From Planctomycetaceae bacterium (GTDB lineage: Bacteria; Planctomycetota; Planctomycetia; Pirellulales; UBA1268): a stretch of DNA of 39,483 nucleotides. The position numbers and the translations under genes were made by a program. The notes beneath the pieces are model-generated. The model did no database searches, was not told the origin of the DNA, and saw only the letters and a program-made list of their open reading frames with translations. The DNA lies in contig CANFQO010000023.1 of NCBI GenBank assembly GCA_947449135.1, forward strand, positions 1 to 39,483, written 5' to 3'. Shown in pieces: positions 10,916 through 29,272 of the stretch. Every line of letters starts with the position of its first letter. The stretch's first letter is position 1.

Positions 10916-10923
10916 AATTCCTC

Positions 10924-11262
10924 CCGGATCGGCATGGCACGTGGGTCGGTGTTTCCACCCGGAGTCCCCCGGCTTCCGCCGGGGGCTTTTATTTCAGCGA
11001 CATGCTGACGCAAACGGTCACGTCACTCCCGAATAGAAGCCCAGAGCGGAAGCGACGGGACACCGGGTCGTTGGGCGCTACCGGGTCTGCATGGCACGTT
11101 GGGCGGTGTTTCCACCCGGAGTCCCTCGGCTTCCGCCGAGGGCTTTTATTTCAGCGATACGCTGACGCAAACGGTCACGTCACCCACGAATAGAAGCCCG
11201 GAGCGGAAGCGACGGGACACCGGGTCGTTGGGCGACATCGGGTCTGCATGGCACGTTGGGGG
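10924..11262 (+). repeat. 157-bp tandem intergenic repeat cluster A (about 2.1 copies)
   Basis: The unit is repeated with exact 157-bp period (GCATGGCAC at 10932, 11089 and 11246). Each unit holds a plus-strand terminator-like hairpin followed by CTTTTA: stem 10966-10973/10978-10985 (CCCCCGGC/GCCGGGGG, loop TTCC) and stem 11123-11130/11135-11142 (CCCTCGGC/GCCGAGGG). The second differs by a compensatory C-G to T-A pair. Between them is an inverted, diverged version of the same hairpin (CCCAGAGC or CCCGGAGC, GGAA loop, GCGACGGG). It fills the gap between two convergent genes and could terminate transcription from both sides. Short frames that run through it are repeat translations, not genes. 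Confidence 0.85.
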
Positions 11263-11309: not shown

Positions 11310-14300
11310 TCACCCCGACTTGCGTCGACCGGGTTTTTCGCCGTGCCTCAGCGCGGCGTAGCCGCCGGCCGGGCTGAAGAAGAAGTGCTCGGCAGGCCAG
11401 GCACCAGGGCCAACCTCCTGGAAGGTGGCCGGCGGCGTGACCGGACTCACATCGACTACCGGCTCGGGCTGCGGTACGGGCTTCGGCTCGGGCTTAGATT
11501 TGGCCACACGGGGTGGCGGCGGGAGTTTCACTGCGTCCGGTTCCGTCCGCCGCCAGACCCGGGAGGGATCGCTGAGCGAACGGACCGTGGCATTCGCCTC
11601 GGCGAAGATGGCGGCCACGTGGGCGTGGCAGGTGAAGACGAGCATCTGCCGCTCGCCGGGTTGATCCGACACGAACTCAACGAGCACCTTGGCCGCAGAT
11701 CGGGCCCGATCGTCGTCGAAGTTCACCAGCGCGTCATCCATCACCAGCGGCAGTGGCACGCCATGCCGTTGCAGATCGCGGACGAGCGCCAGTCGCAGGG
11801 CCAAAAATACCTGCTCCCGGGTGCCCCGGCTGAGCCGTTCCGGCTTCCAGACGGCACCATCCCGATCGTGCACCTCGAGACAGGCTTCGTCGATCGTGGT
11901 GGTGATCGCCGTGTGCCGGCCGTCCGTGAGCCGGGCCAACCAGTGCGAGGCATCGCGGAGCACCGGCGGCTGATGGTCGCGGGCGACCGTCAGCCGTGTC
12001 TCCTCGAGCAAGAGGCCCGTGCGTTCCAAGAGCCGTCGGCGGTCGAGCTGCCCTGCGAGCTGGTGTTCGACATCGGCCAGTTCTGACTGCAGGGCCTCCG
12101 TGCTCCGATCCCGCGCGGTGGCATCGACCTTGGCGGCGATCCCAGCACGCCGATCGCTGGCCAGCCGCAGCGTCGCCCGTAGATGTTCCGTCGCCTCGCA
12201 GGCCTCGGCCAGACGCCGCTCGAGCGGCGTCATGCTGTTCGTCTTCTCGCTGACGTCCTGATCGACAGCAGACTGGAGCGTTTTGCCGACGGTCTTCCGG
12301 CTGCTCTTCGCCGGCGTCAGCGGGCGGAGGGCATCGGCCCGGCCGGGAAGCTCCGCGATCGTGTGGTGGTGATCGGCGTGCAGCCATTGATCGAGCTCGG
12401 ACGGTCCGTTGATCCGGCGCCGGGCATCGAGCCACGCGTTCTCCGCCTCCTCCGCCTCCTGCTTCGTCCGTTCGAAGAGAGGACGGCGGTCGACCTTGGC
12501 GAGGAAATCGGCCTCGTTGTCGACGGCCCAGCGGGTGAGGAAGTCCTTGACGTGGTGTTCGGCCACAGCCAGCTGTTTTTTGCCACGACGGTGGGATGCA
12601 CGCGCTCGCTCGAGCTTGCGGGTGAGCAGGCCACGACGCCGGTGCGCGAGCGACTCGGCCGCCAGCTTTTCCCGCAGTTGGCCGATGTGTTCCAGAGGCG
12701 TCGCCTCCGGAACGAGATCGCACTCCACCATCAGTTCGTCGATCCGCTTGGCGAACGTCGCCAGTTCCTCTCGCTTGTGCCTGGCTTCTTCCGAGAGCCG
12801 GCGGCGGTCGTCATCGAGCGTGAGGAGTGTGTGCCTGTGGAGGCCGATCTGCTTCACCTCAGTGGGCGAGAGCGTGTTGGGCAGGCCGCGATGCTCTAGA
12901 GCCTTCTGCCACCGCAGGCGGGCTGCCTTGCGCTGTGACAGTGCCCGCTTGAGCGCCTGCTGCGCCACGGCGACCTTGTCGGAGAGCACATGCATCGAAC
13001 CTTCGCGGGCGGCCAGTTCCTCCAGCCGTTCCACCTCGGCCTGAGCGAGGGCAGCGCGGCGTTCGAGCGTGTTGACGGTGTCTACAGGAATCTTCTTGTC
13101 GAGCAGGCCGCACTGCGCCAGCAGTTCTTCCCGCTGTTTGTGAACCATGTCACTCTGGCTGCGAGCTGCCTCGAGGCGATTGGAGGCGGCGCGGTCGAGC
13201 GACCAGGTGGTCACTGACGCCAGTCCCGTGCCGGCCAGTCCAAGTGCGGCCAATGCGTAGGCCAGCGGGCCGGTGACCGTCTGCGGGAGGAGCAGACCCG
13301 AAAGCAGCATGCCCGCGCCGGTCACGAATACCGCGCCCAGCGCAATCAGCCAGCCGAGCGGGATCAGTTGGCCTTCCATGAGGTGCACGACCTCGTTGTC
13401 GATGCGGGCGATCGACCGGTCGAGGTCGGCCAGTTGGGCCGTGGCAGCCAGGCGGTTGCGAAACAGCGTGGCTCGGCCGCTCGCCTCTTCGATGGCCTCG
13501 GCGATGGTCATCCCCTTGGGGCCGACGCCTCCCTTGACCAGCCCGCGTGTGTCATCAAGCAGGCCCTTGGCCTCTGCCACACCCCGCTTGGCATCCTTCA
13601 CCTCGCGAGAGGCTTTGGCGCAGTCGCGGGCGCGGGCTCGCAGCGGGCCAAACGAATGCATGAAGCCCTCGGGCAAAAGCACATCGGGCAGCGTGTCGGT
13701 GGCGTCGAGTGGCCCGGTAATCGCGACGATCCGTGAGAGTCCGGCCGTGCCGACCTGTTCGCCAAACCGGCGGGCTGCCAACCGTGCGTGCGACTCAGCA
13801 CGAGCCACCTCCGCCACCATCCGCTCGAGTCGCGGCTGCTCCTCGCAGATCGCCGTCACCGCGGCACGCCGCTTCCAGATTGCTGATTCAGCCGGCACAT
13901 CGGCGAGGCTGCGAGCCAGCAGGCCGCGGCTACGGTGCTTCCGGCGGACGATCCGGGCCAGCGTGTTGCGCTGCTTCGCCGCGCGTTTCCATGCATCGAG
14001 GTCGGCATGCACGAGCGTCGTGCCCACCATGGCATCGAGCTGCGCGGCAGTCTGTCGATAGGCTTGATAGAGCGGCTCGATCCAGAGCACGCCTCGAACG
14101 ACGTCTTCCTCGCCCACGGCTCGCTCGATCGCGGCTTCAAGCGATGCCAATTCGGCATCGGTACGGGCCAGTTCGGCGAGCAGGCTGCCCGCCACCACGG
14201 CCGGCGCGTTGAGGGCAGCGAGCCGGTCGAGCACCTCGTGCCGACGCAGTCGCAGCGACTCGATCGGCGAGATGGCAGCATCATTCGAGTCGAGCCGTTC

Positions 14301-14885
14301 GATCGCCTCGCGGATGTGCCGGAGCACACGGGTCACCTTCGAACGATCAAGGCCGCTGGCCAGTTCATAGAGCCGGCTGCCGCAGCCCTCCGGGTCGAGC
14401 GTACGGAGTTCGTGCAGTTCGTCGAGACCGAATGCCATGACGTTCGTGAACGTGCGCTCGTCAATGTCGCCGACGATGTCCTGCAGGTAGGGGCGGTTCC
14501 AGGGGCGGCCATCCACCGGTGGCACGATGTCTTTGATGGAAATGAAATCACCATGGTCGCCGCCGAGCCCGATGATGTCGTCCTCGTAACTGGCTTGCGT
14601 CAACGTCGGCAGGTCGGGGCCCTCATGTCGCCGTTCGATCGCCAGTCGACGGCCTTCCGGGCCGGTATGCACGATGAGCCGGCCGGCACACGGCAGCTTC
14701 GGGTCGAGCACGCCGCGGCGAAACAGCCCTTCGAATCCGAAGAACATCGCCCGCACGAATTCGAGTAGGGATGTCTTGCCGGTCTCGTTGGTGCCGTGCA
14801 GCACCTGCACGCCGGGGCCGAGGTGGTCGATCGTGACGCCCGTCAGTGAGCCGGAGCGTTCGATGTGGATCGTTTCGATGTGCAT
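11310..14885 (-). CDS. yhaN: SMC/Rad50-like ATPase, YhaN family
   Basis: 1191 aa. The N-terminal P-loop GTNETGKTS at 31-39 sits in 'VLHGTNETGKTSLLEFVRAMFFG', typical of COG4717 YhaN. A long coiled-coil region is interrupted at about 505-565 by two hydrophobic helices ('LGWLIALGAVFVTGAGMLLSGLLL', '...YALAALGLAGTGLASV'), a membrane anchor also known for YhaN. The C-terminal ABC signature 'LSRGTREQVFLALRLALV' (about 1016) and Walker B 'LPLVMDDALVNFDDDRA' (about 1043) are followed by 'MLVFTCHAHVA'. There is no CXXC zinc hook. An unusual proline/lysine-rich tail of about 85 residues follows the ATPase. It is the second gene of an operon with YhaO (76-nt spacing); YhaO/YhaN are Mre11/Rad50 relatives. 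All ATPase motifs look intact although its nuclease partner looks dead. Confidence 0.88.
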   Translation of the reverse strand: MHIETIHIERSGSLTGVTIDHLGPGVQVLHGTNETGKTSLLEFVRAMFFGFEGLFRRGVLDPKLPCAGRLIVHTGPEGRRLAIERRHEGPDLPTLTQASYEDDIIGLGGDHGDFISIKDIVPPVDGRPWNRPYLQDIVGDIDERTFTNVMAFGLDELHELRTLDPEGCGSRLYELASGLDRSKVTRVLRHIREAIERLDSNDAAISPIESLRLRRHEVLDRLAALNAPAVVAGSLLAELARTDAELASLEAAIERAVGEEDVVRGVLWIEPLYQAYRQTAAQLDAMVGTTLVHADLDAWKRAAKQRNTLARIVRRKHRSRGLLARSLADVPAESAIWKRRAAVTAICEEQPRLERMVAEVARAESHARLAARRFGEQVGTAGLSRIVAITGPLDATDTLPDVLLPEGFMHSFGPLRARARDCAKASREVKDAKRGVAEAKGLLDDTRGLVKGGVGPKGMTIAEAIEEASGRATLFRNRLAATAQLADLDRSIARIDNEVVHLMEGQLIPLGWLIALGAVFVTGAGMLLSGLLLPQTVTGPLAYALAALGLAGTGLASVTTWSLDRAASNRLEAARSQSDMVHKQREELLAQCGLLDKKIPVDTVNTLERRAALAQAEVERLEELAAREGSMHVLSDKVAVAQQALKRALSQRKAARLRWQKALEHRGLPNTLSPTEVKQIGLHRHTLLTLDDDRRRLSEEARHKREELATFAKRIDELMVECDLVPEATPLEHIGQLREKLAAESLAHRRRGLLTRKLERARASHRRGKKQLAVAEHHVKDFLTRWAVDNEADFLAKVDRRPLFERTKQEAEEAENAWLDARRRINGPSELDQWLHADHHHTIAELPGRADALRPLTPAKSSRKTVGKTLQSAVDQDVSEKTNSMTPLERRLAEACEATEHLRATLRLASDRRAGIAAKVDATARDRSTEALQSELADVEHQLAGQLDRRRLLERTGLLLEETRLTVARDHQPPVLRDASHWLARLTDGRHTAITTTIDEACLEVHDRDGAVWKPERLSRGTREQVFLALRLALVRDLQRHGVPLPLVMDDALVNFDDDRARSAAKVLVEFVSDQPGERQMLVFTCHAHVAAIFAEANATVRSLSDPSRVWRRTEPDAVKLPPPPRVAKSKPEPKPVPQPEPVVDVSPVTPPATFQEVGPGAWPAEHFFFSPAGGYAALRHGEKPGRRKSG

Positions 14886-14960: not shown

Positions 14961-16226
14961 TCACGTTGATTCGATCAGTTCGAGAGCGAGCCAGGCCGAT
15001 TCGCGGGCAAGATCTGCTGGAATGGCGTGGAGCGGTTGCTGTTCCAACCCATTGACGATGTCGGCCAGCGCCGTCGAGAACGACGTGGTGCTGCCGGGCT
15101 TCGCGCCGGAACGGGAGTGGCCAAGCGCGATCAGCGACTCTCCCGGATCGGCGATGACCTCGTGGCACCAGGCGCGAAACGTCCTCGGATCGTAGAGCTG
15201 TCGGACGCGGGCCAGAGTCTCGGCGGAGATTTCCGCCACCCGCACCCGGCGAGACACGCTCGTGCCACATTCCACATGGCACCGGATGATCTCCAGCGGA
15301 CCGCGGACATCGAGCGACAAGGCTTCGATCGACGACCAGATCGTCGTGGCCAGTTCCTCGTCGCCGCCGGTGGCGGAGGCGATCGTGACCGTTCGCCAGG
15401 CGACATTGTGCGTCGGTATCTCCCGCCAGTTGTGCCGCCAGTCGGTGCGTGATTCGAGCGTATCCCGTCGGCTGCTCGGCAGCGCCGCGTCGTCTGCGGT
15501 CGGGTGATCGAGGAGCGTGAGCATGCCGCACGATCCGGCGGCCGATTCATGCGCCGAGCGGGCCTGCAGTGCCGGGAGGTGGTGCCAGCCGGCGGCGACG
15601 GGCGGTCGACGGCGCGACCCCCAGACGCAGAAGGTGTTTGCCAGCGGCCCGCCAGCGTGCGGCGTCCAGCGGTGCTCTGCCGTGGCCGGCTCGTCATCCC
15701 ACCGCTCCGAATTCCAGTGGCTCGCATCCCAGCCCAAGACGATCCGCCGCTCGAGTGTCGAAAGCGCCGGATGTGTGGTGTCGGCAGGGGCCGTCAGCAC
15801 TGGAAGTCCAGCAGCGTGTCTGTCGCTGGCCGAGATGATCTCCACCGCGATGCCGCGGATCTCAAGCTGCAGCGGGGCAGTGGGGGTGACGAAGACGAGC
15901 CCGGCCGGTTCACCGAGCATCCTCGCGATGTCGGCGCAGTGGGTCGTGTCGGCGGCGAGCCAGACCGTCCGGCAGCCGTGGTCGGCCAGTCCGGTGATCA
16001 GCGATCGCAGCATGGCGGCCTGAGCGGGGCTGGCTCGCTGCGGATCGAGGACGCGTCCGAAGAGCACGAGCGCTGCGGCGTCTGCCTGCCTGGCGGCGGC
16101 TGCGGCCGACAGCAGCGCATCGGTCGCGGCGGTGGCGACAGGTTCTGCCACGGCGGCCGGCGCGGATTCGAGCCTGGGGAGCGGGCGGTCGAGTGCGGGG
16201 TCAAACGCAAACACGAGGTCTGCCAC
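14961..16226 (-). CDS. yhaO: YhaO-like (Mre11/SbcD) phosphoesterase homologue with all metal-binding motifs degraded
   Basis: 421 aa from GTG 16226, which has AAGGTGG upstream and aligns the N-terminus position for position with YhaO proteins ('FDPALDRPL' against family 'ADIHLDSPL'). TTG 16256 is an upstream alternative. The whole calcineurin-like plan is traceable, but the catalytic residues are not: DxH is D-P-A (residues 9-11), GD is GR (57-58), GNHD is replaced by 'AADTTH' (91-96), the H of 'LLH' is replaced in 'VLGWDAS' (163-169), and GHxH is GSRR (203-206). The following 'LQARSAHESAAGSCG' matches the family 'LQGRH..ETG.KG' region, so the alignment register is secure. This predicts a structural, non-nucleolytic partner of the downstream YhaN ATPase. 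The reading frame is intact, which argues against simple decay. Confidence 0.78.
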   Translation of the reverse strand: MADLVFAFDPALDRPLPRLESAPAAVAEPVATAATDALLSAAAAARQADAAALVLFGRVLDPQRASPAQAAMLRSLITGLADHGCRTVWLAADTTHCADIARMLGEPAGLVFVTPTAPLQLEIRGIAVEIISASDRHAAGLPVLTAPADTTHPALSTLERRIVLGWDASHWNSERWDDEPATAEHRWTPHAGGPLANTFCVWGSRRRPPVAAGWHHLPALQARSAHESAAGSCGMLTLLDHPTADDAALPSSRRDTLESRTDWRHNWREIPTHNVAWRTVTIASATGGDEELATTIWSSIEALSLDVRGPLEIIRCHVECGTSVSRRVRVAEISAETLARVRQLYDPRTFRAWCHEVIADPGESLIALGHSRSGAKPGSTTSFSTALADIVNGLEQQPLHAIPADLARESAWLALELIEST

Positions 16227-16341
16227 GGCGGCCACCTTTTCTACAGAGCACCTCAAGCGGGTGCTGATGCGCCGACGGCCGATCTACGGGACCGATGACA
16301 AGGCCCGAGCCGATCCGTGGCAGGGGAACACAGGAAAGATG

Positions 16342-16640
16342 GGGGCAATGTAACGCCCCAGGGCCGCTCGCGGCCAGCGCAAAAAACCGCTGAGAAACGC
16401 TCGTTCTGCGCCCCATGATCGCACAAGTGACAAAAAGCCCACGGCGGAAGCCGGGGGACTCCGGGTGTGAGCACCACCCCGCGCGACTTGCAGATCCGGT
16501 GTTGCCCAACGACGCGGTGTCCCGTCGCTTCCGCTCCGGGCTTCTATTCGTGGGTGACGCGACCGTTTGAGTCAGCATGTCGCTGGAATAAAAGCCCCCG
16601 GCGGAAGCCGGGGGACTCCGGGTGTGAGCACCATGCCGCG
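16342..16640 (-). repeat. Leader of yhaO and 157-bp repeat cluster B
   Basis: Two minus-strand oriented terminator-like hairpins lie 157 bp apart: 16438-16445/16450-16457 (CCCACGGC/GCCGGGGG, one mismatch) and 16595-16602/16607-16614 (CCCCCGGC/GCCGGGGG, perfect). On the minus strand both end in CTTTTT or CTTTTA. Between them lies the inverted companion hairpin ('GTCCCGTCGCTTCCGCTCC', 16519-16537). The orientation makes the cluster a terminator for the hypothetical gene at 16661-17443. Closer to yhaO are two small inverted repeats (GGGGC/GCCCC at 16342-16359; GGCCGC/GCGGCC at 16362-16375). I see no convincing promoter hexamers in 16227-16430. Confidence 0.8.
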
Positions 16641-16660: not shown

Positions 16661-17443
16661 CTATGTCGTCAGCAGCGGCGGTGAGGCGGCGAATGCGGAC
16701 GCCAGATCTCCGGCCCATTGCGTCGCGGTGGCAGTGGGGCCGATTGCGGCCAGCACCCTGCTGCGGAGCAGCACGCCTTTTTCCAGCGCAGTTGAGAAGA
16801 GCCAGCATTCGACGCTGGTCCGCCGGCCGTGCTGCACCGCGCTCACCCGTTGGGCATCACCCGGATGCGCAGCCACCAGCACGCTTGTGGGGAGAGACCC
16901 AGGCGTGCTGCTGTGAGTGAGCAGGACGCAGGTCGCTTCTGGCCCTGGATCTCCCTGCCACTGCACGGTTCCTTCTCGGCAGGTGCCCCACAGGATAGTG
17001 GTGGAGTCGATATCAGACACGACGGCGAGCACGGAATCGCTCTGCAGCAGGGAGGTCTGCGCCGAGACGACGAGTTCCCACGCCTGCGTGCCTGCCATCG
17101 AAGGATGGAGCCGCCACATCGCGGTGGTCCGCAGCTGGCGAGCGTCTGCTGATTCATAGATGGCGGTGACGTCGGCACCCCGCAGCCAGTGATCGGTGAG
17201 ACGGTATGCCGGCTGGAGATCGAGCCCGAGCAGCGCGACTTCTGACGACGCATCCTGGCCTGCCAGTGTGATGCCGCGGCGCGGCTGATCGAGATCGATG
17301 CCGCCGGGATGATTCGTGCCAGGTGAATGTCTGGGGTCGGTCAATCGCCCGGCCGTACCGAGCCAACCGGCAGAGGCGGGCTCTCCTGGCGAAGCCGGTG
17401 GGAACGAATGCTGCTGTGGGATTGACGGTGGCATGGCGATCAT
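16661..17443 (-). CDS. Hypothetical protein
   Basis: 260 aa from ATG 17443; ATG 17434 and TTG 17491 are alternatives and none has a strong ribosome-binding site. I do not recognise a domain. There is no signal peptide or TM helix. The first 60 residues are rich in Pro, Ser and Gly and look disordered. From about residue 60 a compositionally normal, alternating strand/helix sequence begins ('EVALLGLDLQPAYRLTDHWLRGADVTAIYE', 'WELVVSAQTSLLQSDSVLAVVSD', 'VECWLFSTALEKGVLLRSRVLAAIG'), consistent with one beta-rich domain. It is transcribed divergently from the inositol-phosphatase gene, with a 136-nt gap, and its 3' end runs into repeat cluster B. Codon use is like its neighbours, so it is probably a real cytoplasmic protein. 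Confidence 0.6.
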   Translation of the reverse strand: MIAMPPSIPQQHSFPPASPGEPASAGWLGTAGRLTDPRHSPGTNHPGGIDLDQPRRGITLAGQDASSEVALLGLDLQPAYRLTDHWLRGADVTAIYESADARQLRTTAMWRLHPSMAGTQAWELVVSAQTSLLQSDSVLAVVSDIDSTTILWGTCREGTVQWQGDPGPEATCVLLTHSSTPGSLPTSVLVAAHPGDAQRVSAVQHGRRTSVECWLFSTALEKGVLLRSRVLAAIGPTATATQWAGDLASAFAASPPLLTT

Positions 17444-17579
17444 GGCCCTGTGGAGCGGAGAGTGAGGGGACAGGCGGAATTCTAGCGGCAATTGGCGATC
17501 GCCAGGCCACTTTTCCGGCCGCGGTCACTACACTCTCGCACGAGATCAATTTCAGAGCGCTATCCCTCGTGAGCCCGCC

Positions 17580-18483: not shown

Positions 18484-18775
18484 AGCATGTCGCTGGAATA
18501 AAAGCCCCCGGCGGAAGCCGGGGGACTCCGGGTTTGAATGCCATCGAGCGTGCCATGGAGATACGGAATCGCCCAACGCCCCGGTGTCCCGTCGCTTCCG
18601 CTCCGGGCTTCTATTCGTGGGTAACGTGACCGTTTGAGTCAGCGTGTCGATGAAATAAAAGCCCCCGGCGGAAGCCGGGGGACTCCGGGTTTGAATGCCA
18701 TCGAGCCTGCCATGCAGATCCGGGAAAAGCCCAACGACGCGGTGTCCCCGGACTTCCGTCCGGGGCTTTTTGAAG
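18484..18775. repeat. 157-bp repeat cluster C plus variant terminator hairpin
   Basis: Two minus-oriented hairpins 157 bp apart (18505-18512/18517-18524 and 18662-18669/18674-18681, CCCCCGGC/GCCGGGGG with GGAA loop on the plus strand) are separated by the inverted companion hairpin at about 18590-18608. The cluster ends in a third, plus-oriented variant, CCCCGGAC-TTCC-GTCCGGGG (18746-18765) followed by CTTTTT. That last one is the best textbook intrinsic terminator in the region. It comes about 300 nt after the inositol-phosphatase stop. Confidence 0.83.
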
Positions 18776-19112: not shown

Positions 19113-22100
19113 ATGCCCAGCCACCGTTTCGTCCGCCGTGCCAACCCGTTGTCGTGGGCGTTTCTGCTCATGGCAGCGGTCGCATCATTGGCAGGCTGGG
19201 CCGCTGCGGCAGACACGACGCCGCCGCCAGCGGTGCGGGAGGCGATGCCCGAGATCTACTATCTTCAGGATGACGCGGGCCGGCTCGTGCCCGTGCCCGG
19301 CTTCCGCTACCGCGATTTTGTCGATCTGCTGCGGATCAAGGAGGGGCTCCCCGGGCTCCCTGAGCCGCCGGCGGCCGTGCTGGAAAAGGTTGTTGTGCGG
19401 GCCGCATTGCCTGCTCGGCAGAGCGGGGCTCCAGCCAGCACCGATGGAACAGCAGTCAGGCCTGCGCAGCCGACGACCTGCGAGGTGACGGTTGAACTGA
19501 CCGTGCGGCAATCCCGCAGCGGCTGGGTGAGTCTCCCGCTCGCCCTTGACGGTCTCCTTATCACCGCAGCGCCCCGGTACGAGGGACCGGGCCGGATGCT
19601 CCTGGCGGCTGAAGCGACAGGCAATGCTGCGGCTCAGCAGGGAGGCTATCGGCTGTGGATCACGGCGGTCCGGGACGCCAGCACCGAAGTTCTCAGACAC
19701 ACGGTGATCCTCACCGGCAACATCGCGATCGATGTCTCGCCCGATCACGAATCGTTCACGCTGCAGATACCGCGAGCGACGGCGTCGCTGCTGGAAGTGC
19801 AGACGCCGCGGATCGAGCCGGACGTATGGGTCCGCCCAGCGTCGCTACCGCCGCAGATCGAGCCCCAGCCCAGCGGTGCTGGCAGCATCGTCACGCTCGT
19901 GGGCCTCACCGGCACCGCGACGATCCGTATTGGCGCCAGCAGGAGTGGCGTTGCTGGCGAGACGATCCCCTCCGAGGTGACCAGGGCCGCGGTGCCCGAG
20001 GCAATGGTCGAGAGCCTCGTGCGGATCGATGGTCGCGTCGCGATTACGGAGGCGAGCATTCGTCTGGACAATCTGCCCGCCGATATTGCGACGATCCGCG
20101 TATCCCTTCCTCCACGGGCCACGCTGCGAAGCATCCGCAGTCCCTCGTCGCTGGTGACGCTGGAAGGATCGGATGACCAGACTCAGGCGGTGATTCGCAT
20201 CGATCGCGGGGCTGATGGGCAGAGCCTGGTGGAACTGGAATGCGAGCGGCCCGTCGATTCGACCGGCCGCGAAGCCTTCGAGTCGCTGGGATTCGCCGTG
20301 GAGAATATTCCGCTGTGGCGGCAATGGGGACGGGCCAGCATCGTGGTGGAGGGGGATTGGCAGGCGGAGTGGGATGCCGTGGGCAAGAATCGGCGGATCG
20401 ATCCGCCGCTCTCCGCGCGTCGCCCGGGCTTCGTCGCCGCCTTCGCCTACGATTCCCAGCCTGCACGGCTGCCGCTCCGCGTGCTGCCCCGCGGCAGCCG
20501 CGTGGTGATCGAACCCGAGTACCGTTACGACGTCTCTGCCGCGCGGGTGGCGCTTGATGCCCGACTGCGGGTGTCGGTCCGGGGAGCGCCCGTGTCCCAG
20601 ATCGTCGTGGCGATCGACGGATGGGATATCGATGAAGTCGGCCCGGCCAGTGTGATCGACTCCGCGGCCGTCTCGGCGGAGGGGGGCAGACTGGTGATCC
20701 CCTTCGTGCAACCGCTGTCGGGAGATGCCGTCGTGGAAATCCGTGCCGGCCAGTTGCTTGGACGCGATGTGAATCGGGTGGGCTGGCAGATACCGGCGCC
20801 GCAGGCCGATCTCGTCGGCCCAGCCTCGATCATCATCGCCGCGCAGAGCGACATTGAACTGATGCCCGACGCTGAAGGTGTTCGTGGACTCGTGCGACAG
20901 TTGACGCCAACCACGATGCGATCCGATGCCGACAGGGTTGCCTTGGTCTACCGACTCGATGGCCCAGACGGCAGCTTTGAGGCCACCCGGCGGTTTCTGC
21001 CGCGGCGCGTCGATGCCTCCATCACGGCTCAGGCCGATATCGATGAAGCGGATTCGATCGTGCGGGAGACGATTCGCTACGACGTCGCCCACGTGCCGCT
21101 GGAGTTCGTCACGTTGACCGTGCCGGTGGCCGTGATGGACACCGGTACTCTCGAAGTGCGGCAAAACGGATTGCTGCTCAACCCGGAGCAGGATGCGGAA
21201 GGCAGCAGGCCGGCTGGGCAGGTGAACGCGGGCTTGGCCACCGCGGCGGCCGAGCCCGCTGACGGCCTGCCTCTGCCGAGGGTGCGGCTGCGGGCCATGC
21301 TGGCCATGCCGCTTCTGGGTACGGGAGAAGTGACCGTGCAGTACGAACTCCCGACGCCAACGATTGCGCCGGAGTCGACCGTCGCCGAGGATCTGCCGCT
21401 CGTGTTGCCGGCGACCACCAGAATTGCCCGCCAGTCGATCGCACTGACCGTACCGGAGACGTTGTCGATCGACGTCCGCGGTGACGCCTGGAAGCGCGAT
21501 GTCGCCTCGCTGGGATCGATCGCCAGTCGCACCTGGACCACGGCCCGTTCGCAGGAGTTCGTGCCGTTGGCAATCTCAGCCCGGAAGCGATCTTCACAAG
21601 GCGATACGGTGGTCGAGGCGTCCTGGCTCCAGACGAGACTGCTTGGCGACAGGCGGGAAGATGTTTGTCGCTATGGCGTGGTCAGTTCGGCCGACCAGAT
21701 CACGCTTCTGCTGCCCCCCGGCTTCGTGACTCCCGTCGACGAGTCAGCCGGCGCCACTGCCACGACCGGGGAGGACGCGACCGTCGAGGTGCGTCTTAAT
21801 GGACAGCCGCTAGCCGGTGCGGTCCGCGCTGCCGGCCGAATCGTCATCGACCTTCCTCAGCGTGCCGGCAACCCTGCCTGGCTCGTGGAGTTGGTCACCA
21901 GTCGGAAGCGGGATGGCTGGGCGTTGCCATTCGGCGACATGGCCGGGATGCCAGCAGTCGTTACCCTGCAACCGCCCGAGTTCGCTCCCGGTACGCTCCA
22001 GCGGCGATTTTACTGGGAACTGTTGCTCGAGCCCGATGTGCACCCGCTCGGACATCCCGGCAGTTGGACATCGCAGCAGGCGTGGGAGTGGGGGCCATTC

Positions 22101-22685
22101 GGTCTCCGCCGCGTGCCGATCATCTCGCGCGATGCACTGCGGTCGTGGTTGACCGCGAGTTGCGGGTCAACGCAGCCGGCTGACTCCGCAGCGGGCAGCG
22201 CTACCGTGGCCGCGTTGCCCAGACTGCCCGTAGATCTGCCAGCCGCTGGTCCGCGCGCCGTGTTCTCGGGTGTGGGGGCTCCGGATACGGCCCGGATCTG
22301 GGTGGTGCCCACGTGGCTGCTGGTGTTGGCGGTCTCCGGGCCCGTGTTTGCCCTGGGCGTTTTGGGCGTCTACCAGTCGCGGCTACGCAGCGTGCCGGTG
22401 GTGCTCAGCCTGGCCGTGATCGCGAGCCTGGCTGCTGCCTTCTTTCCAGACCTGGCTCCACTCGCGGCGCAAGCGGCCGTGCCTGGGGTGGCCCTGGCGG
22501 TTTTCGCCGCCGCGTTGCGATTCATCCTCGACCGCCGCACCGCCGTCCCTCCGACCAGCCTTCCGAGTCCAGCCGTCTCGGCCAGTTCGATGACGCAGGT
22601 CGCGCCGCAGCCATCTCTCATCATCGCTCCCTCCTCGCCGCTCCTGCGCGAAGGGAGCACCAACGCCGGACGAGATCTGCCATGA
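19113..22685 (+). CDS. Giant exported beta-rich protein with C-terminal TM helices (module 1)
   Basis: 1190 aa, no family recognised. A signal peptide at about 10-33 (ends AAA-D) is followed by 'YYLQDDAGRLVPVPGFRYRDFVDLLRIKEGLP' at 49-80, the type of VP..F..LL segment also seen in the downstream protein. About 980 residues of Val/Arg/Asp-rich beta-strand sequence follow, without cysteine pairs or catalytic motifs. At about 1067-1140 there are three TM helices ('WLLVLAVSGPVFALGVLGV', '...VLSLAVIASLAAAFF', 'VPGVALAVFAAALRFIL'), then a Ser/Pro-rich tail. The topology is therefore a huge extracytoplasmic domain anchored in the membrane at its C-terminus. The stop overlaps the next start by 4 nt (ATGA), implying translational coupling and a joint complex. 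The start is ATG 19113. Confidence 0.85.
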   Translation: MPSHRFVRRANPLSWAFLLMAAVASLAGWAAAADTTPPPAVREAMPEIYYLQDDAGRLVPVPGFRYRDFVDLLRIKEGLPGLPEPPAAVLEKVVVRAALPARQSGAPASTDGTAVRPAQPTTCEVTVELTVRQSRSGWVSLPLALDGLLITAAPRYEGPGRMLLAAEATGNAAAQQGGYRLWITAVRDASTEVLRHTVILTGNIAIDVSPDHESFTLQIPRATASLLEVQTPRIEPDVWVRPASLPPQIEPQPSGAGSIVTLVGLTGTATIRIGASRSGVAGETIPSEVTRAAVPEAMVESLVRIDGRVAITEASIRLDNLPADIATIRVSLPPRATLRSIRSPSSLVTLEGSDDQTQAVIRIDRGADGQSLVELECERPVDSTGREAFESLGFAVENIPLWRQWGRASIVVEGDWQAEWDAVGKNRRIDPPLSARRPGFVAAFAYDSQPARLPLRVLPRGSRVVIEPEYRYDVSAARVALDARLRVSVRGAPVSQIVVAIDGWDIDEVGPASVIDSAAVSAEGGRLVIPFVQPLSGDAVVEIRAGQLLGRDVNRVGWQIPAPQADLVGPASIIIAAQSDIELMPDAEGVRGLVRQLTPTTMRSDADRVALVYRLDGPDGSFEATRRFLPRRVDASITAQADIDEADSIVRETIRYDVAHVPLEFVTLTVPVAVMDTGTLEVRQNGLLLNPEQDAEGSRPAGQVNAGLATAAAEPADGLPLPRVRLRAMLAMPLLGTGEVTVQYELPTPTIAPESTVAEDLPLVLPATTRIARQSIALTVPETLSIDVRGDAWKRDVASLGSIASRTWTTARSQEFVPLAISARKRSSQGDTVVEASWLQTRLLGDRREDVCRYGVVSSADQITLLLPPGFVTPVDESAGATATTGEDATVEVRLNGQPLAGAVRAAGRIVIDLPQRAGNPAWLVELVTSRKRDGWALPFGDMAGMPAVVTLQPPEFAPGTLQRRFYWELLLEPDVHPLGHPGSWTSQQAWEWGPFGLRRVPIISRDALRSWLTASCGSTQPADSAAGSATVAALPRLPVDLPAAGPRAVFSGVGAPDTARIWVVPTWLLVLAVSGPVFALGVLGVYQSRLRSVPVVLSLAVIASLAAAFFPDLAPLAAQAAVPGVALAVFAAALRFILDRRTAVPPTSLPSPAVSASSMTQVAPQPSLIIAPSSPLLREGSTNAGRDLP

Positions 22686-25600
22686 AATCTCCGAGCGTCA
22701 GACCCGTCCTCCGGCCGGTGGCAGCGACGCCGCAGATCCTCTGGCGAACGTTCTTCGCCGCGGTGATCGTGCTCTTGGCCGCCGGGTGGCCGGCGGGCCG
22801 GGCCGACGATCCCACAGCACCCGCTGCGGCTGATCGTGACGTGGACGAAAAGCCCCTCGCCTTCACGCGGGTGCATGTGCCCGCAGGGCGACTGTCGGAC
22901 ATTCCGGTGGGTACCACACGGTATGTGCCTATGTCGGCGCGGGAGTTCGAGGAAGGGATCACCAGGCTCTCGGCTGGCAGGCCCGGCGAAAGGGGCGAGG
23001 CCACCGAGCCGGCTCTTTCGTCACTGGCCGATGCCGCCCGCTATCAGATCTCGCGGGCTGACGACGGCAGTCTGAAGGGCACGCTCTCATTCGACATCGG
23101 CGGTACGGACGATGCCGTGGCTGGATCTCGGCTGCCCCAAATCGGAATGCCGCGTCCGATGTCGCTGGGCACCCTCGAGGTGCGTTCGGCATCCATGCGC
23201 ACGACTGCGGGCCTCGGTGAAGCCGTCGTGTTTGGTCGGCCCGATGGCACCGTGGCCATTGTTGCCACGGAGGCCGGCACATACACCTGCGACTTCCGCT
23301 GCACCGCAGCGCCCGGCTCGGAGGATGCGCCGCGGTTTTCGCTGCCGCTTGTGCCGGCGCTGTCGTCATCGATCACGCTACGGCTGCCTCGTGGCCTCCA
23401 GCCCATGGTCGGCGGAGATGTACGTGTCGGTCGGCTTCGCGAACTCACCGCGGATCAGGCCGCAGACACGACCGTGCGGCAGCTGCCGGCGATGGTCGCC
23501 TGGCAGATCGATACCGGGCCGCGTGAGACGCTCGAACTGACGCTGGTCGGGGATGATCGCCCGGCCACGATGCTCTCGCTGTGGACCGACATCGGCATTC
23601 GCCGACGGCAGGCACGCTTCAGAGTGCTCGTGCAACCGCTGGCACCATGGCTGCCCGGGAAGATCCGCATCGAGAAGGATCCTGCTGTGCTGGTGACGCA
23701 GGTTGCTGTGACCGCCGGCGGTCAGCTTGAATCGCTTGACGAGAGGGCGTGGACCGTGGCTGAGGGGGGCACGGAGGTGGTCGTTGATCTCCCGCAGTGG
23801 TCTGCCGGCGGACGTGAGCCGATCGTCATCAATGCGGTGGCGCCGGTTCCAGACAGCGCCGCACCCCTGCCACTGCTGCGGCTGCCGGCTGAGTCGTGGT
23901 CGGGTGGCGGCATCACGATTCAGATCGCGCCGTCGCTGTCGCTGTCATCCATCGAACTCGAACACTGCCTCGTCGTGCCCCCCGAGGCTGCCGTGCGGTG
24001 GCCGCTGCCGACCGCTGAGGCACCCGAGCCCGTCGCCAACGCGACAACGCCACGCGTCGGGAGCGAAGACCAAGGATCGACCCCGGGGGTCTTACCGTCG
24101 CGGTTGTTCGTGGAAGAACAGGCCCCGGGCGCCACGATGAAGCTCTCGTTGCTACCCCGTACCGCCGACCTGGACGTGGCCCGCGTCACCACGATCGATC
24201 TCTCTCCGGGAGTCGTCGTGGGTCGGGCGGCATGTGATGTGCGCGTGTATCGTGGCGAATGCTTTGATCTGACCGCCCGCATCACCCCAGGGTGGTTCAT
24301 CGATTCCGTCGAGTCGTTCTCGCTGTCCACACCGGCCGAAGTCTCCGATGCCACGCGGCGGCGCAGCGGAGATGAACCGATCTCGGGTCTCGATTGGAAG
24401 GTGGTTCGCGACATCCGTGGTGATGTCCTGCAGATCGGGTTGATCACCGCCGCAACGCCCGCGCAGGGCCTCGGGCTGCGGATCAAGGGGCACCGGGCCG
24501 GCATCGCGCTGGAGGAGGACTTTTCGACGGCGGAGATCGACATGGTCCGTCTCGAGGGTGAGTCGGAACGGTCGTCGCTGATAGATCTGCGGACCAGTCC
24601 CGAGACCACCGTGGAGTTTGCGCACGGTCCTTTGTCGGAGCAGGAAGGGCTCGCCCCGGCGGATGCCACGCAGGCCGATTTCCAGCTGGTGGGGCCCGAG
24701 AGTCGCCTGACGGCGCTGATGGAGGAAGGCGCTGCGCGGGCGCGGGTCTGGTGTGGTGTCCTCGTGGCATCCCGTACGGCGCAGCTCGTTCGCCGCCGGC
24801 CGCCCCTCGATGTGCGAACCGAGGTGCGGCTCACGGTCCGCGACGACCGGCTTACCGAGGCGGTCACGTTCGAGTGCCAGCCGGCGTCCGCCGATCTCGA
24901 TTCAATCGTCGTTCAGTTTTCGGAGCCCGTGGATGACCTCTTGGAGTGGTCGCTACTGCCGCCGGCCATCGGGACGGTGGCGGCGCGTCGGCTCGATTCC
25001 TCTGACCGCCGCACTGCTTCTGGAGGGGCGCCAGGCGCTGAGCGCTGGCTCGTCGAGCTGAATCCGCCGGCCCGCGGAGCCGTAACGATTCGTGCTGCCC
25101 GCACGATCCCGTTTGTCCGGGCCACGCCCATGCTGCTGGCATGGGTGGACGGAGCCACGTCGGCCGTGGGCCACGTTCTCGTCAGGAATGTCGGCCGCCT
25201 GCGACCGCAGGTGGTCAACCGGCGACTCACGGAAGTACCCCCCGAATCGGTCGAGGCCGATGCTGCCTCGCTCACTCTGGCGGAGTTTTCCTTCGAGCCG
25301 GCCGCGGCCTCTGACTCCGCAGGTCTGCCTGCCGCGGAGCTGACGCCGGGGGGCGATGATGCCCGGGCGTGGTCATGCCGAGAGAACGCGTCCTCGTGGT
25401 GCTATTCTTCCGGCGCGACAGAATATGAAACGCTCTTTGACATCGACAATCACGGCCGTACCAGCCTGTCTCTCAGTATTCCACCTGGCCGCCGCGTGCA
25501 GGGGATCTTGCTTGACGGTGTGAGGCTACCGCTGGGGGAACGGGTGGCTGCGGGGGGGCAGGTGCCGATCGTACTCCCGGCCGGCAGGTCCCGGGTCACC

Positions 25601-28600
25601 TTACTGGTGCGGACGATCGTCGACAGCGAGAACGTTCCCGGCAGATTGGGGAGCGGGCTATGGTCATCATGGCGGGTTGCCCCGCCAGGAGTGAAACTCG
25701 ACATTCCCGTCTTGCAGCGGGAGTGGCAGCTGTTCTTGCCGTCCGGGTTGGAGATTGCGTGGGTGAGCGGCTCATCGCGTCTTGTCGATGGTGCTGGCCG
25801 CCGCGACTGGCTCGCTCGATTGTTGGGGGCTTCTGTTCGTCCGCTGGCGGCTGTTCCGGCCGTGGCAAAGGCATCCTCCAACTCAGGACAGCTTTCCCTG
25901 CCGCTGAACCCGCCAGGCCCGCTGCTGTCGGGCTTTCGCGGATCTCTGGTCGTGCCCAGAGGTGATGCCGGCGTGGTGGTGGTGCACGACCGCGTTCTGT
26001 TCGCGGCAGCGGTATGCGTCGGTCTCGCGGCGGGCTGCGGTGGGCTTTGGCTGACGCGGGTGAGCCTGCGAGGAGCGGCATTCCTGTGCCTGCTGACGGG
26101 AGTGGCCGCGCTCTGGGTCGCCGTACCGTTCGATGGTATTGCACGGGCGGCGTGGTGGGCGTCGTTGGCCGCGTTGGCCCTGGCCATAACGGGATGGCTG
26201 CGGAGTCGGCGGAGCGATGGCCAGAACGATGGCGGGCCGCTCAAGCCAGCCGGGCAGGGCATGGTGGCGATCATCATCGTTGCCGTGAGTCTGGCGGCAA
26301 CACCGTTCGCTGTGGCCGAGGACGCCGCCGGGCCTGCGGTTGATGCGGCTGTCACCGACTCTTCTACGGCTGGGCAGAAGGCTCCGTTGCAGGTCTTCGT
26401 CATGCCATCCGACAGCGGTCAGCAGACCGACATACCTACCGACCCACGTGATGACACCACGGTTCTCGTGCCGGAGGAACTGTTTCGCCTGCTGGTGCGC
26501 GGGGAAGACGCCCGCGGGTTGGCGGCGGTGCGGGTACTGGCGGTTCAGGTGACCGCAACAGCACCAGTCGAGGCGGAAGCTCCTTGGACACCCTGGCGGT
26601 TGGCCGTCGATGTCGATGCTGACACGGGCGGGATTCTACTGCTCGATCAGGCCGCGAGTGGTGCGCGGTTCACTCCGGGTTCGCTGCGGATCGACGGCGG
26701 ACTCGCTGCGGCCAGACTGGATGCCGGCGGCAGCCAGCTGCGGATCGTGGTTCCTGATTCCGGTCGACATACGGTGACCGTGGACGTCGAGGCTGCCAGC
26801 CAGCGGCGTGGCGACGTGGAGTCGGCAATGATCGCGCTCCCTCTGGCGCCCGTGGCAGGATTGCAACTTCTGCCGTCGTTGGGCGGATCGTCGGCGGCCC
26901 GCGTGATCTGCGAACGGTCTCCTGCGGCGGGGGGCTTCACGTCAGCACCACGAGTCTCTGCCGATGCCAACGCCGTCGTTTTCGATGTATCGAGATCGAC
27001 CCAAGTGCGGCTCGTGCGATCGGTGGTGGAAGGTGTCGAAATCGCCTCGCCACCATCCACTGCGGTGAGCCGCAACGACATCTTCTGGAATCTGGACGAG
27101 TGTCGGCTGACGGCCGTCTATGACATCGAAGCGGGCGATGCAGTCGTGCGGTCCTGCGTGGTGAACGCAGACCCGGGGCTCGAGTGGATCGCGCCACTTG
27201 GGCGGCAGAACGGTCAGGATGGTTCCTCGTTGCAGGATGAAGGTGACGCTGCCGACGGAGTGTCGATCCGGCCGCTGGGCGGCCAGCGTTTTCTCGTCGA
27301 GCGACTGAAGCCCGAACGCGGCCGATTTCGGTTCGAGATGCCCTTTCGCATGCCACTGGCCGATCCGGTCGGCGTGTTCGATGTGCCTGCTGCCTGGCTT
27401 GAAGACGTTCTGCTCGATGTGCGTTCGGTGCGATTCGTGGCGAGTCCAAGCCTTGCGGTGCGAATTGACCTGCCCGCGGGACTCACCCATGCCGCCATCC
27501 CCGACGGTGAAGCGTCTTTCGAGACACGGTTCTGGAAGAGCGAGGTATCGCGGGCCATGGCCGTCGATGCTCTGGTCGGCTCGAACGCCATGTCGCCGGC
27601 GCTCTCCACTGCTCCGCAAAGTGCGCCGCGTGCCCGCCTGACATCCGAACGCCGCCGGCAGGAGATCCGCGGTTCCCAGCGGGAGTCGGTCGTGTTTACC
27701 AAGGAACAGATACGGATCCGTCTCGATGCCCGTCTCGATGCCAGTTCCACGGCGCTGGTCGCAATCCCGCTGGATGTCCCGGCAGGATCTCTGATCGATC
27801 GTATCGAACTCTTCGAGGACGACATCCTGCATCCGGAAACCGCAGAACGCGGCGCCGTCGACCTGCGGTGGAGTCGGCCGACCGACACCGTCGTGGCTGT
27901 CGTCGTCCAGCGGCCGCGGGCCGGCCGCTTCAGGCTCGAGGTCGACGCCCGCATCCCAGGGCAGCCACCTGGGCGGGGCCCCATGCCCTGCCTGCGGATC
28001 GGCCTGGCCGATGGCTCGCGAACGTTGATCGAATGGCGAGCGGAAGACGGTCTTCTCATGGCGCTCCAACCAACGACTGGCGAAGAGGCAGCGGTCCGAG
28101 AGGAAGGCGAGCCATTCCGTGCCGGGCAGTTCGAACTGGTCAACGGTGATCAGCCACCCACATACGTTCTCAAACCCTCGCCGGCGTTGTCGTTGGAACT
28201 CGATGCCGAGCCTGACCTCCCACTCACGGCGCCGGCCGAGGGTGCCTCTGGCCGAAACGGCCGTGTTGAACTGGCTGACATCCGTCTGGCGTTGGACGAG
28301 CGGGGCCGAACGTGGGGGCTGGCGTGTTTCGAGATGGTGTCGGCGGATCAGGTCGTGCGGATCCGACTGCCGCAGTCATGGCGGCTCTTTGACACGGTCG
28401 TGGACGGCCGGCCGGTGGACTGCGTCGTGACGACGGTGGCGGGCTCCGACAATATCTGGGAAATGCGATTGCACGATGTGGCCAGACCACGAAGCGTCAT
28501 CGCGTTGTTCGCGGGAGAACTCGTCGTGGGAGAACAAGGGCGACGGGTGCTGGACGGTGAACCACTCGCACTCTCGCCGCCCGCGATCGTCGGGCTCGAC

Positions 28601-29272
28601 TGCCGGCAGACGATCTGGACCGTGCACGTGCCCACAGGCATCACGCTGCGAGTGGCAGCGCCTGCCCGCATTGTGCCAGTCGGTGATCTGAAGGAGGAAC
28701 GACGCGCAGCCCAGGTGCGGCTGCGCGACGATGTTCAGCAAGCGATCGAGATGAGTGCCGGCTGGCAGCAGGAACGCGTACGAGCCTTTTTGGATTCGCG
28801 CCGCGACGGCGCAAGTCCTACGGCCGATCAGGCCTGGGATCGGGCGCTGACGTCAATCGCCAGCCCATTTCCGCAGTCGCCGTCGCTTGGCATCGTGGTG
28901 GAGAATGAAGCTGCTGGGACTGCCGCCGGTCAGATCACGATCCGAGTTGTCCGACAACGCGATCCAACCGCGTGGGGTCGTGCCATAGCAACGCTGTCTC
29001 TGCTGGCATGCGGCAGCCTCGCCTGGATGGCGGCGCGCAGAGGCTGGTCACCACGGCCGGCGACCTGGATGCGGGTGGCCCCCGTGCTCTCCCTCTTGGC
29101 AGGGGCCGTCTGGATCGGGCTGCTTGAGCCCGCATGGCCCGGTGCGCTGCTCGTAGCCGGTGGAATTGCGGCGTTGTTAAGGGGATGGCCGACGCCCCGA
29201 CGCGACGTTACCGTAGAGGCTGCCGCGCCGAACAGGGCTCTGGCAACGACGATCTATCGCCCGCAGTCGTAG
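22682..29272 (+). CDS. Giant exported protein, apparent two-module fusion (modules 2 and 3)
   Basis: 2196 aa; the frame is open upstream but ATG 22682 is coupled to the previous stop. A signal/TM helix (about 19-40) is followed by a VP-F-L motif, 'VHVPAGRLSDIPVGTTRYVP...FEEGITRL' (64-96). Over 1000 beta-rich residues follow, then three TM helices at about 1103-1177. A second signal-like helix begins at Met1194 ('MVAIIIVAVSLAATPFAVAED'), followed by the same pattern, 'VFVMPSDSGQQTDIP...VLVPEELFRLL' (about 1240-1272). A second beta-rich stretch ends in TM helices at about 2097-2170. The halves (1193 and 1003 aa) match module 1 (1190 aa) in plan and size, so this looks like a fusion of two paralogous exported proteins. 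There are no enzymatic motifs; a structural, envelope or scaffold role is only a guess. Confidence 0.85.
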   Translation: MKSPSVRPVLRPVAATPQILWRTFFAAVIVLLAAGWPAGRADDPTAPAAADRDVDEKPLAFTRVHVPAGRLSDIPVGTTRYVPMSAREFEEGITRLSAGRPGERGEATEPALSSLADAARYQISRADDGSLKGTLSFDIGGTDDAVAGSRLPQIGMPRPMSLGTLEVRSASMRTTAGLGEAVVFGRPDGTVAIVATEAGTYTCDFRCTAAPGSEDAPRFSLPLVPALSSSITLRLPRGLQPMVGGDVRVGRLRELTADQAADTTVRQLPAMVAWQIDTGPRETLELTLVGDDRPATMLSLWTDIGIRRRQARFRVLVQPLAPWLPGKIRIEKDPAVLVTQVAVTAGGQLESLDERAWTVAEGGTEVVVDLPQWSAGGREPIVINAVAPVPDSAAPLPLLRLPAESWSGGGITIQIAPSLSLSSIELEHCLVVPPEAAVRWPLPTAEAPEPVANATTPRVGSEDQGSTPGVLPSRLFVEEQAPGATMKLSLLPRTADLDVARVTTIDLSPGVVVGRAACDVRVYRGECFDLTARITPGWFIDSVESFSLSTPAEVSDATRRRSGDEPISGLDWKVVRDIRGDVLQIGLITAATPAQGLGLRIKGHRAGIALEEDFSTAEIDMVRLEGESERSSLIDLRTSPETTVEFAHGPLSEQEGLAPADATQADFQLVGPESRLTALMEEGAARARVWCGVLVASRTAQLVRRRPPLDVRTEVRLTVRDDRLTEAVTFECQPASADLDSIVVQFSEPVDDLLEWSLLPPAIGTVAARRLDSSDRRTASGGAPGAERWLVELNPPARGAVTIRAARTIPFVRATPMLLAWVDGATSAVGHVLVRNVGRLRPQVVNRRLTEVPPESVEADAASLTLAEFSFEPAAASDSAGLPAAELTPGGDDARAWSCRENASSWCYSSGATEYETLFDIDNHGRTSLSLSIPPGRRVQGILLDGVRLPLGERVAAGGQVPIVLPAGRSRVTLLVRTIVDSENVPGRLGSGLWSSWRVAPPGVKLDIPVLQREWQLFLPSGLEIAWVSGSSRLVDGAGRRDWLARLLGASVRPLAAVPAVAKASSNSGQLSLPLNPPGPLLSGFRGSLVVPRGDAGVVVVHDRVLFAAAVCVGLAAGCGGLWLTRVSLRGAAFLCLLTGVAALWVAVPFDGIARAAWWASLAALALAITGWLRSRRSDGQNDGGPLKPAGQGMVAIIIVAVSLAATPFAVAEDAAGPAVDAAVTDSSTAGQKAPLQVFVMPSDSGQQTDIPTDPRDDTTVLVPEELFRLLVRGEDARGLAAVRVLAVQVTATAPVEAEAPWTPWRLAVDVDADTGGILLLDQAASGARFTPGSLRIDGGLAAARLDAGGSQLRIVVPDSGRHTVTVDVEAASQRRGDVESAMIALPLAPVAGLQLLPSLGGSSAARVICERSPAAGGFTSAPRVSADANAVVFDVSRSTQVRLVRSVVEGVEIASPPSTAVSRNDIFWNLDECRLTAVYDIEAGDAVVRSCVVNADPGLEWIAPLGRQNGQDGSSLQDEGDAADGVSIRPLGGQRFLVERLKPERGRFRFEMPFRMPLADPVGVFDVPAAWLEDVLLDVRSVRFVASPSLAVRIDLPAGLTHAAIPDGEASFETRFWKSEVSRAMAVDALVGSNAMSPALSTAPQSAPRARLTSERRRQEIRGSQRESVVFTKEQIRIRLDARLDASSTALVAIPLDVPAGSLIDRIELFEDDILHPETAERGAVDLRWSRPTDTVVAVVVQRPRAGRFRLEVDARIPGQPPGRGPMPCLRIGLADGSRTLIEWRAEDGLLMALQPTTGEEAAVREEGEPFRAGQFELVNGDQPPTYVLKPSPALSLELDAEPDLPLTAPAEGASGRNGRVELADIRLALDERGRTWGLACFEMVSADQVVRIRLPQSWRLFDTVVDGRPVDCVVTTVAGSDNIWEMRLHDVARPRSVIALFAGELVVGEQGRRVLDGEPLALSPPAIVGLDCRQTIWTVHVPTGITLRVAAPARIVPVGDLKEERRAAQVRLRDDVQQAIEMSAGWQQERVRAFLDSRRDGASPTADQAWDRALTSIASPFPQSPSLGIVVENEAAGTAAGQITIRVVRQRDPTAWGRAIATLSLLACGSLAWMAARRGWSPRPATWMRVAPVLSLLAGAVWIGLLEPAWPGALLVAGGIAALLRGWPTPRRDVTVEAAAPNRALATTIYRPQS

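Follow-up and report, generated by a model that had tools for sequence, protein, structure and literature searches.

A conserved YhaO/Mre11-type protein with lost metal ligands beside an intact YhaN ATPase in Planctomycetota

Mre11-Rad50 complexes tether DNA as well as cutting it, and the weight that each of these halves carries in the cell is hard to separate. Two described systems lie closest to the locus analysed here: SbcCD/Mre11-Rad50, with which it shares a nuclease-plus-capping fold encoded beside a Rad50/SMC-type ATPase gene, and the bacterial YhaO/YhaN pair, with which it shares the yhaO-yhaN gene order, the Mre11-type fold, an LQ/QGR segment and a Rad50-like ATPase head. Nuclease activity in Mre11 depends on H85, the proton donor, which is essential (PMC4996933). 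Within its superfamily, the active archaeal protein DP1 is structurally closest to Mre11, and the inactivated phosphoesterase B subunit of eukaryotic polymerases, when set against DP1, offers by analogy the closest precedent for the present case (PMC7308368, PMC4996933): in such B subunits (e.g. Dpb2) a dead calcineurin-like phosphoesterase has likewise been kept as a structural subunit, although the partner is a polymerase rather than an SMC-like ATPase, an OB domain is inserted and the systems are eukaryotic. A literature search, with subscription journals mostly outside it, returned nothing on the function of YhaO/YhaN and nothing on a dead planctomycete Mre11.

The window, i.e. the whole stretch of 39,483 nucleotides that was analysed, belongs to contig 23 of a 3.69 Mb assembly that is 96% complete. 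A preliminary description had reported an uninterrupted 421-aa frame at 14961-16226; the coordinates hold, with the frame lying on the minus strand, where 421 open codons start with a GTG at 16226 and reach the stop at 14961, whilst a plus-strand reading is ruled out by stops. The position of this start codon is common to relatives, and an alternative in-frame TTG at 16256 would yield a protein of 431 aa. The features of the gene, with motif positions taken from the alignment with canonical YhaO, are as follows:

14961..16226, minus strand: pseudo-YhaO (Mre11 fold, metal ligands lost), 421 aa, GTG start
16194..16202, minus strand: former motif I, D9-P10-A11 replacing DxH (His to Ala)
16053..16058, minus strand: former motif II, G57-R58 replacing GD
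15939..15956, minus strand: former motif III, AADTTH (91-96) replacing GNHD, with D-T-T at the ligand positions
15729..15731, minus strand: former motif IV, W166 replacing the LLH histidine
15609..15620, minus strand: former motif V, GSRR (203-206) replacing GHxH
15546..15569, minus strand: retained LQARSAHE segment (220-227), whose Q, R and E vary little or not at all in the canonical and family sets
14964..15005, minus strand: C-terminal RESAWLALELIEST, where conservation within the family is highest; candidate YhaN-binding helix

The protein has no Pfam or NCBIfam match, and no YhaO-specific model was seen in those databases. Its identity as a YhaO/Mre11-type protein, as initially proposed, is upheld by the predicted fold and by a chain of profiles that passes through relatives from the same order. 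The AlphaFold2 model (pLDDT 84.3, pTM 0.85) displays the Mre11 nuclease-plus-capping fold: a Foldseek search with this model ranked Mre11 and SbcD first (E 1e-7), and VIA-align gave a Z of 17.7 to human Mre11 over residues 1-361, which comprise the nuclease and capping domains, with the top 39 rows all being Mre11/SbcD and the next metallophosphatase following at a Z of 12.1. A profile grown from order-level YhaO scored full-length family proteins at ~320-490 bits, values that are not independent since the family had joined the profile; in a search of the window's genome, the order-only profile still picked out the window protein, at 1.6e-6. It is because of these intermediates, together with the predicted fold, that we take the protein to descend from YhaO. 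The Pfam Metallophos model is matched by 14 of 20 order relatives despite the missing catalytic proton donor, which should serve as a warning for annotation.

Column-wise alignment with canonical YhaO gave the ligand string DARDTTWSR for the window protein, compared with DHDNHDHHH for the canonical set: 8 of the 9 active-site positions are changed, with only the first Asp of DxH kept, as it is in most family members. The individual changes claimed beforehand (DPA, GR, AADTTH, loss of the LLH histidine, GSRR) were all borne out by this alignment, as was the retention of the LQ.R...E region after the last motif, whose positions are 100% conserved in canonical YhaO and 90-100% conserved in the window's family. 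The broader statement that all five motifs are lost applies to the window's family only, as DxH and GD are often present elsewhere in the lineage. None of 57 further family loci (some from genomes shared with the 36-genome set described below) keeps at least 5 of 8 ligands, and the motif IV Trp is present in 44 of them. In 86 family sequences we found no conserved set of residues from which a two-metal His/Asp site could be rebuilt; the best conserved His column reaches only 66%, which gives no hint of a reconstituted His site. Cys 85, 233, 320 and 354 are conserved in 84-100% of the same sequences. Other canonical-invariant residues have also been lost, with a mean of 31% kept in the family versus 13% for the ligands, a difference that is not significant. 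Ligand columns drop more than other invariant columns, and a test for ligand-specific loss reached significance in f21, another family of the class, only (p 0.017), and neither in the order nor in the window's family (codes such as f1 and f21 are labels of the search tool).

Within the window's family, whose named members are MAGs of Planctomycetota, in several cases with the label Pirellulales, pseudo-yhaO stands beside yhaN in 34 of 36 genomes, and in the two genomes without the gene the yhaN match begins at or near a contig end. At 44 of the 57 further family loci a same-strand Walker A is found, with some of the others ending early. Of 23 genomes from elsewhere in the order, spanning 18 of the 19 other families, 22 have a degenerate YhaO next to YhaN, and only one (G040) has a canonical YhaO in this place. 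The usual pattern there is milder: DxH and GD are kept, GNHD has become xxxD and GHxH has become GGxH, so that across the 23 genomes (canonical G040 included) the motif I His is retained in 17, the motif II Asp in 18 and the last His in 15. None of 31 degenerate order sequences retains N84, H85 or the first GHxH His, and they have also lost the GHxxYAP loop, which is near-invariant in 43 canonical YhaOs. YhaO is degenerate in f21 too, with canonical YhaO present in some f21 genomes; two f21 members, L118 (GEHDP) and L119 (GQHDP), keep the motif III His, so that the losses are not all shared across the lineage. The members of f105-f109 and of the rest of the phylum that were read have canonical YhaO, except for L124 and L126. 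These two proteins from outside the class are otherwise canonical and have the catalytic motif III His (H85) changed to Ala or Glu, which possibly marks an independent start of inactivation. A phylum-wide profile search scored few candidates and missed the window's own family, so that its absences carry little weight.

The degenerate protein is not always the sole YhaO of its genome. At least eight order genomes carry an additional canonical YhaO elsewhere (L127, L128, L165, L167, L168, L169, L171, L172), meaning that the degenerate pair is a paralogue and not a replacement. In the window's genome no canonical YhaO was found elsewhere with the order profile, an absence that a 96% complete assembly leaves unproven; this genome gave six metallophosphatase matches, and the one taken for comparison resembles PdeM. 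Many family genomes (L145-L163) also possess a separate SbcD-like gene whose GNHD motif is intact, and thus the dead YhaO is often accompanied by a relative that appears to be active. One f21 genome also has a second, shorter degenerate YhaO (L136, G082:C1:176000-179100; 385 aa) beside another YhaN-like ATPase, and short matches resembling it occur in G194 and G250.

The partner gene yhaN starts 75 bp downstream of pseudo-yhaO on the same strand, and a further conserved gene lies upstream:

11310..14885, minus strand: YhaN, Rad50/SMC-like ATPase, 1191 aa (AAA_27, 1.3e-7)
14772..14795, minus strand: YhaN Walker A, GTNETGKT
11808..11834, minus strand: YhaN signature, LSRGTREQV
11715..11747, minus strand: YhaN Walker B, LVMDDALVNFD
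13209..13358, minus strand: YhaN hydrophobic helix pair (~510-559), candidate membrane hairpin at the apex of the coiled coil (hydropathy, model)
16661..17491, minus strand: conserved upstream gene, genomic neighbour of pseudo-yhaO, 276 aa, no Pfam match

YhaN had rightly been described as an intact ATPase: all three motifs are retained in the window protein, placed towards its two ends with coiled coil in between, and they are invariant or nearly so throughout the lineage. Its best solved relative by profile is Thermotoga Rad50 (1.2e-6). The YhaN model, with a mean pLDDT of 74 and a pTM of only 0.40, places the head halves at the ends with long helices between them, and helices 510-532 and 541-598 of this model form the hydrophobic pair. 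Hydropathy analysis identified such a mid-protein hairpin in 27 of 27 degenerate-lineage YhaN proteins tested. As a hallmark of the degenerate lineage it was ruled out, since five partners of canonical YhaO outside the class also have it; the hairpin, and with it membrane tethering if this is real, is consequently older than the ligand loss. The locus therefore resembles some canonical bacterial YhaO/YhaN pairs in its hairpin and differs from them in lacking the metal ligands, the proton donor H85 and the GHxxYAP loop, and in that the YhaN partners of degenerate YhaO form a branch of their own; from SbcCD/Mre11-Rad50 it differs in the missing catalytic residues and in the mid-ATPase hydrophobic hairpin. 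Every family locus with sufficient flanking sequence (44 of 44) carries the 276-aa gene, directly upstream of pseudo-yhaO. It was rejected as a third subunit, given that within limited flanks a homologue lies upstream in only one (L083) of the order loci tested. A search for defence families (PADLOC) gave no match for pseudo-YhaO and only short N-terminal ATPase matches for YhaN.

In a tree of 54 YhaO proteins the 29 degenerate sequences fall on one side of a branch with support of 93/84, with the window's family on long branches and the program warning of long branches and an uneven composition; the corresponding YhaN tree (25 proteins) likewise sets the partners of degenerate YhaO on one side (support 100). 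As the two trees agree, a single origin is the simplest explanation, with the window's family as the extreme, and we regard such an origin as likely. Independent losses in the order and in f21, and with them several pseudonuclease origins, would fit the fact that the order often keeps DxH, that f21 is mostly without it and that the motif III His persists in some f21 members; yet both trees group all degenerate pairs together, and neither the order nor f21 retains the YAP loop or the first GHxH His, which renders separate origins unlikely. The identity of the family proteins to order relatives is only 14-21%, and this fast divergence could be read as that of a decaying relic on its way to loss. 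Such decay is hardly credible in the face of an open frame in the assembled family loci, an invariant C-terminus (the stretch REAGWLALEL being the most conserved within the family), fixed synteny and dN/dS values within the genus of 0.11-0.17 for pseudo-YhaO, close to the 0.10-0.13 of YhaN. No broken gene was found among family loci with the region assembled. The same losses recur in every sampled family member under purifying selection, and hence represent more than chance: the conserved loss anticipated in the preliminary description is what these loci display.

Catalytic inactivity of pseudo-YhaO is strongly supported at the level of sequence, and the initial reading of a pseudonuclease that is conserved beside an intact YhaN finds agreement here; what began as an observation on a single gene is confirmed and extended to an old, conserved pseudonuclease lineage that extends through the order and into another family of the class. 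An enzyme with a one-metal or rebuilt site, and with residual or altered phosphoesterase activity, would be conceivable chiefly in the order members, most of which keep DxH, GD and the last His, whilst most members of the window's family keep the first Asp; the loss of H85, N84 and the first GHxH His from all 31 order sequences, and the lack of any well-conserved His column in the family, make this improbable. It could also be that the pair has left DNA metabolism and become a membrane-bound ATPase complex with another job, in which the Mre11 fold is a legacy scaffold: the hairpin in all 27 degenerate-lineage YhaN proteins tested, the deleted catalytic loop and the conserved upstream gene lacking a known domain would suit this option, which we nevertheless consider doubtful, as the hairpin predates the loss and the ATPase heads still match Rad50.

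We consider it probable that an ancient loss of nuclease activity turned YhaO into a structural pseudonuclease subunit that docks on YhaN and serves non-cutting DNA clamping or tethering, probably anchored in the membrane. The loss would have begun in an ancestor common to the window's order and the other family of the class, where the YhaO beside YhaN would have started to shed catalytic residues along with the substrate loop after motif IV, and it would have become complete in the window's own family. The protein would have retained the Mre11 fold and its C-terminal helices and would still work with YhaN: by analogy with Mre11-Rad50, these helices may dock it on the YhaN ATPase heads and it may help the complex to clamp or tether DNA upon ATP binding, without cutting, with the mid-YhaN hydrophobic hairpin probably anchoring the complex in the membrane. 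The conserved pairing suggests a DNA-repair-like machine that operates without cutting; what points to a putative physical complex is the pairing of the genes and the agreement between the splits of the two trees. More tentatively, and with slightly less than even confidence, we propose that this is a distinct membrane-tethered Mre11-Rad50-like machine with a pseudonuclease, ancestral to two groups of Planctomycetota, in which tethering has been evolutionarily separated from the nuclease. One lineage has apparently kept the ATPase and the Mre11 fold over the long term and shed the catalytic site in visible steps, which provides a natural series from active to dead YhaO, in bacteria that sometimes hold an active paralogue too, and thereby makes the non-nuclease role of Mre11-Rad50-like complexes directly testable.

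Two further observations concern the surroundings of the pair. Dispersed repeats lie at 10921-11234, 16433-16634 and 18484-18768, intergenic around yhaO-yhaN; they measure ~157-242 nt, occur in both orientations and are 84-92% alike. On the plus strand, 19113-29272 holds two very long ORFs of 1190 and up to 2319 aa, the first without a Pfam match, and sequence similar to both is found at the equivalent place in many family loci.
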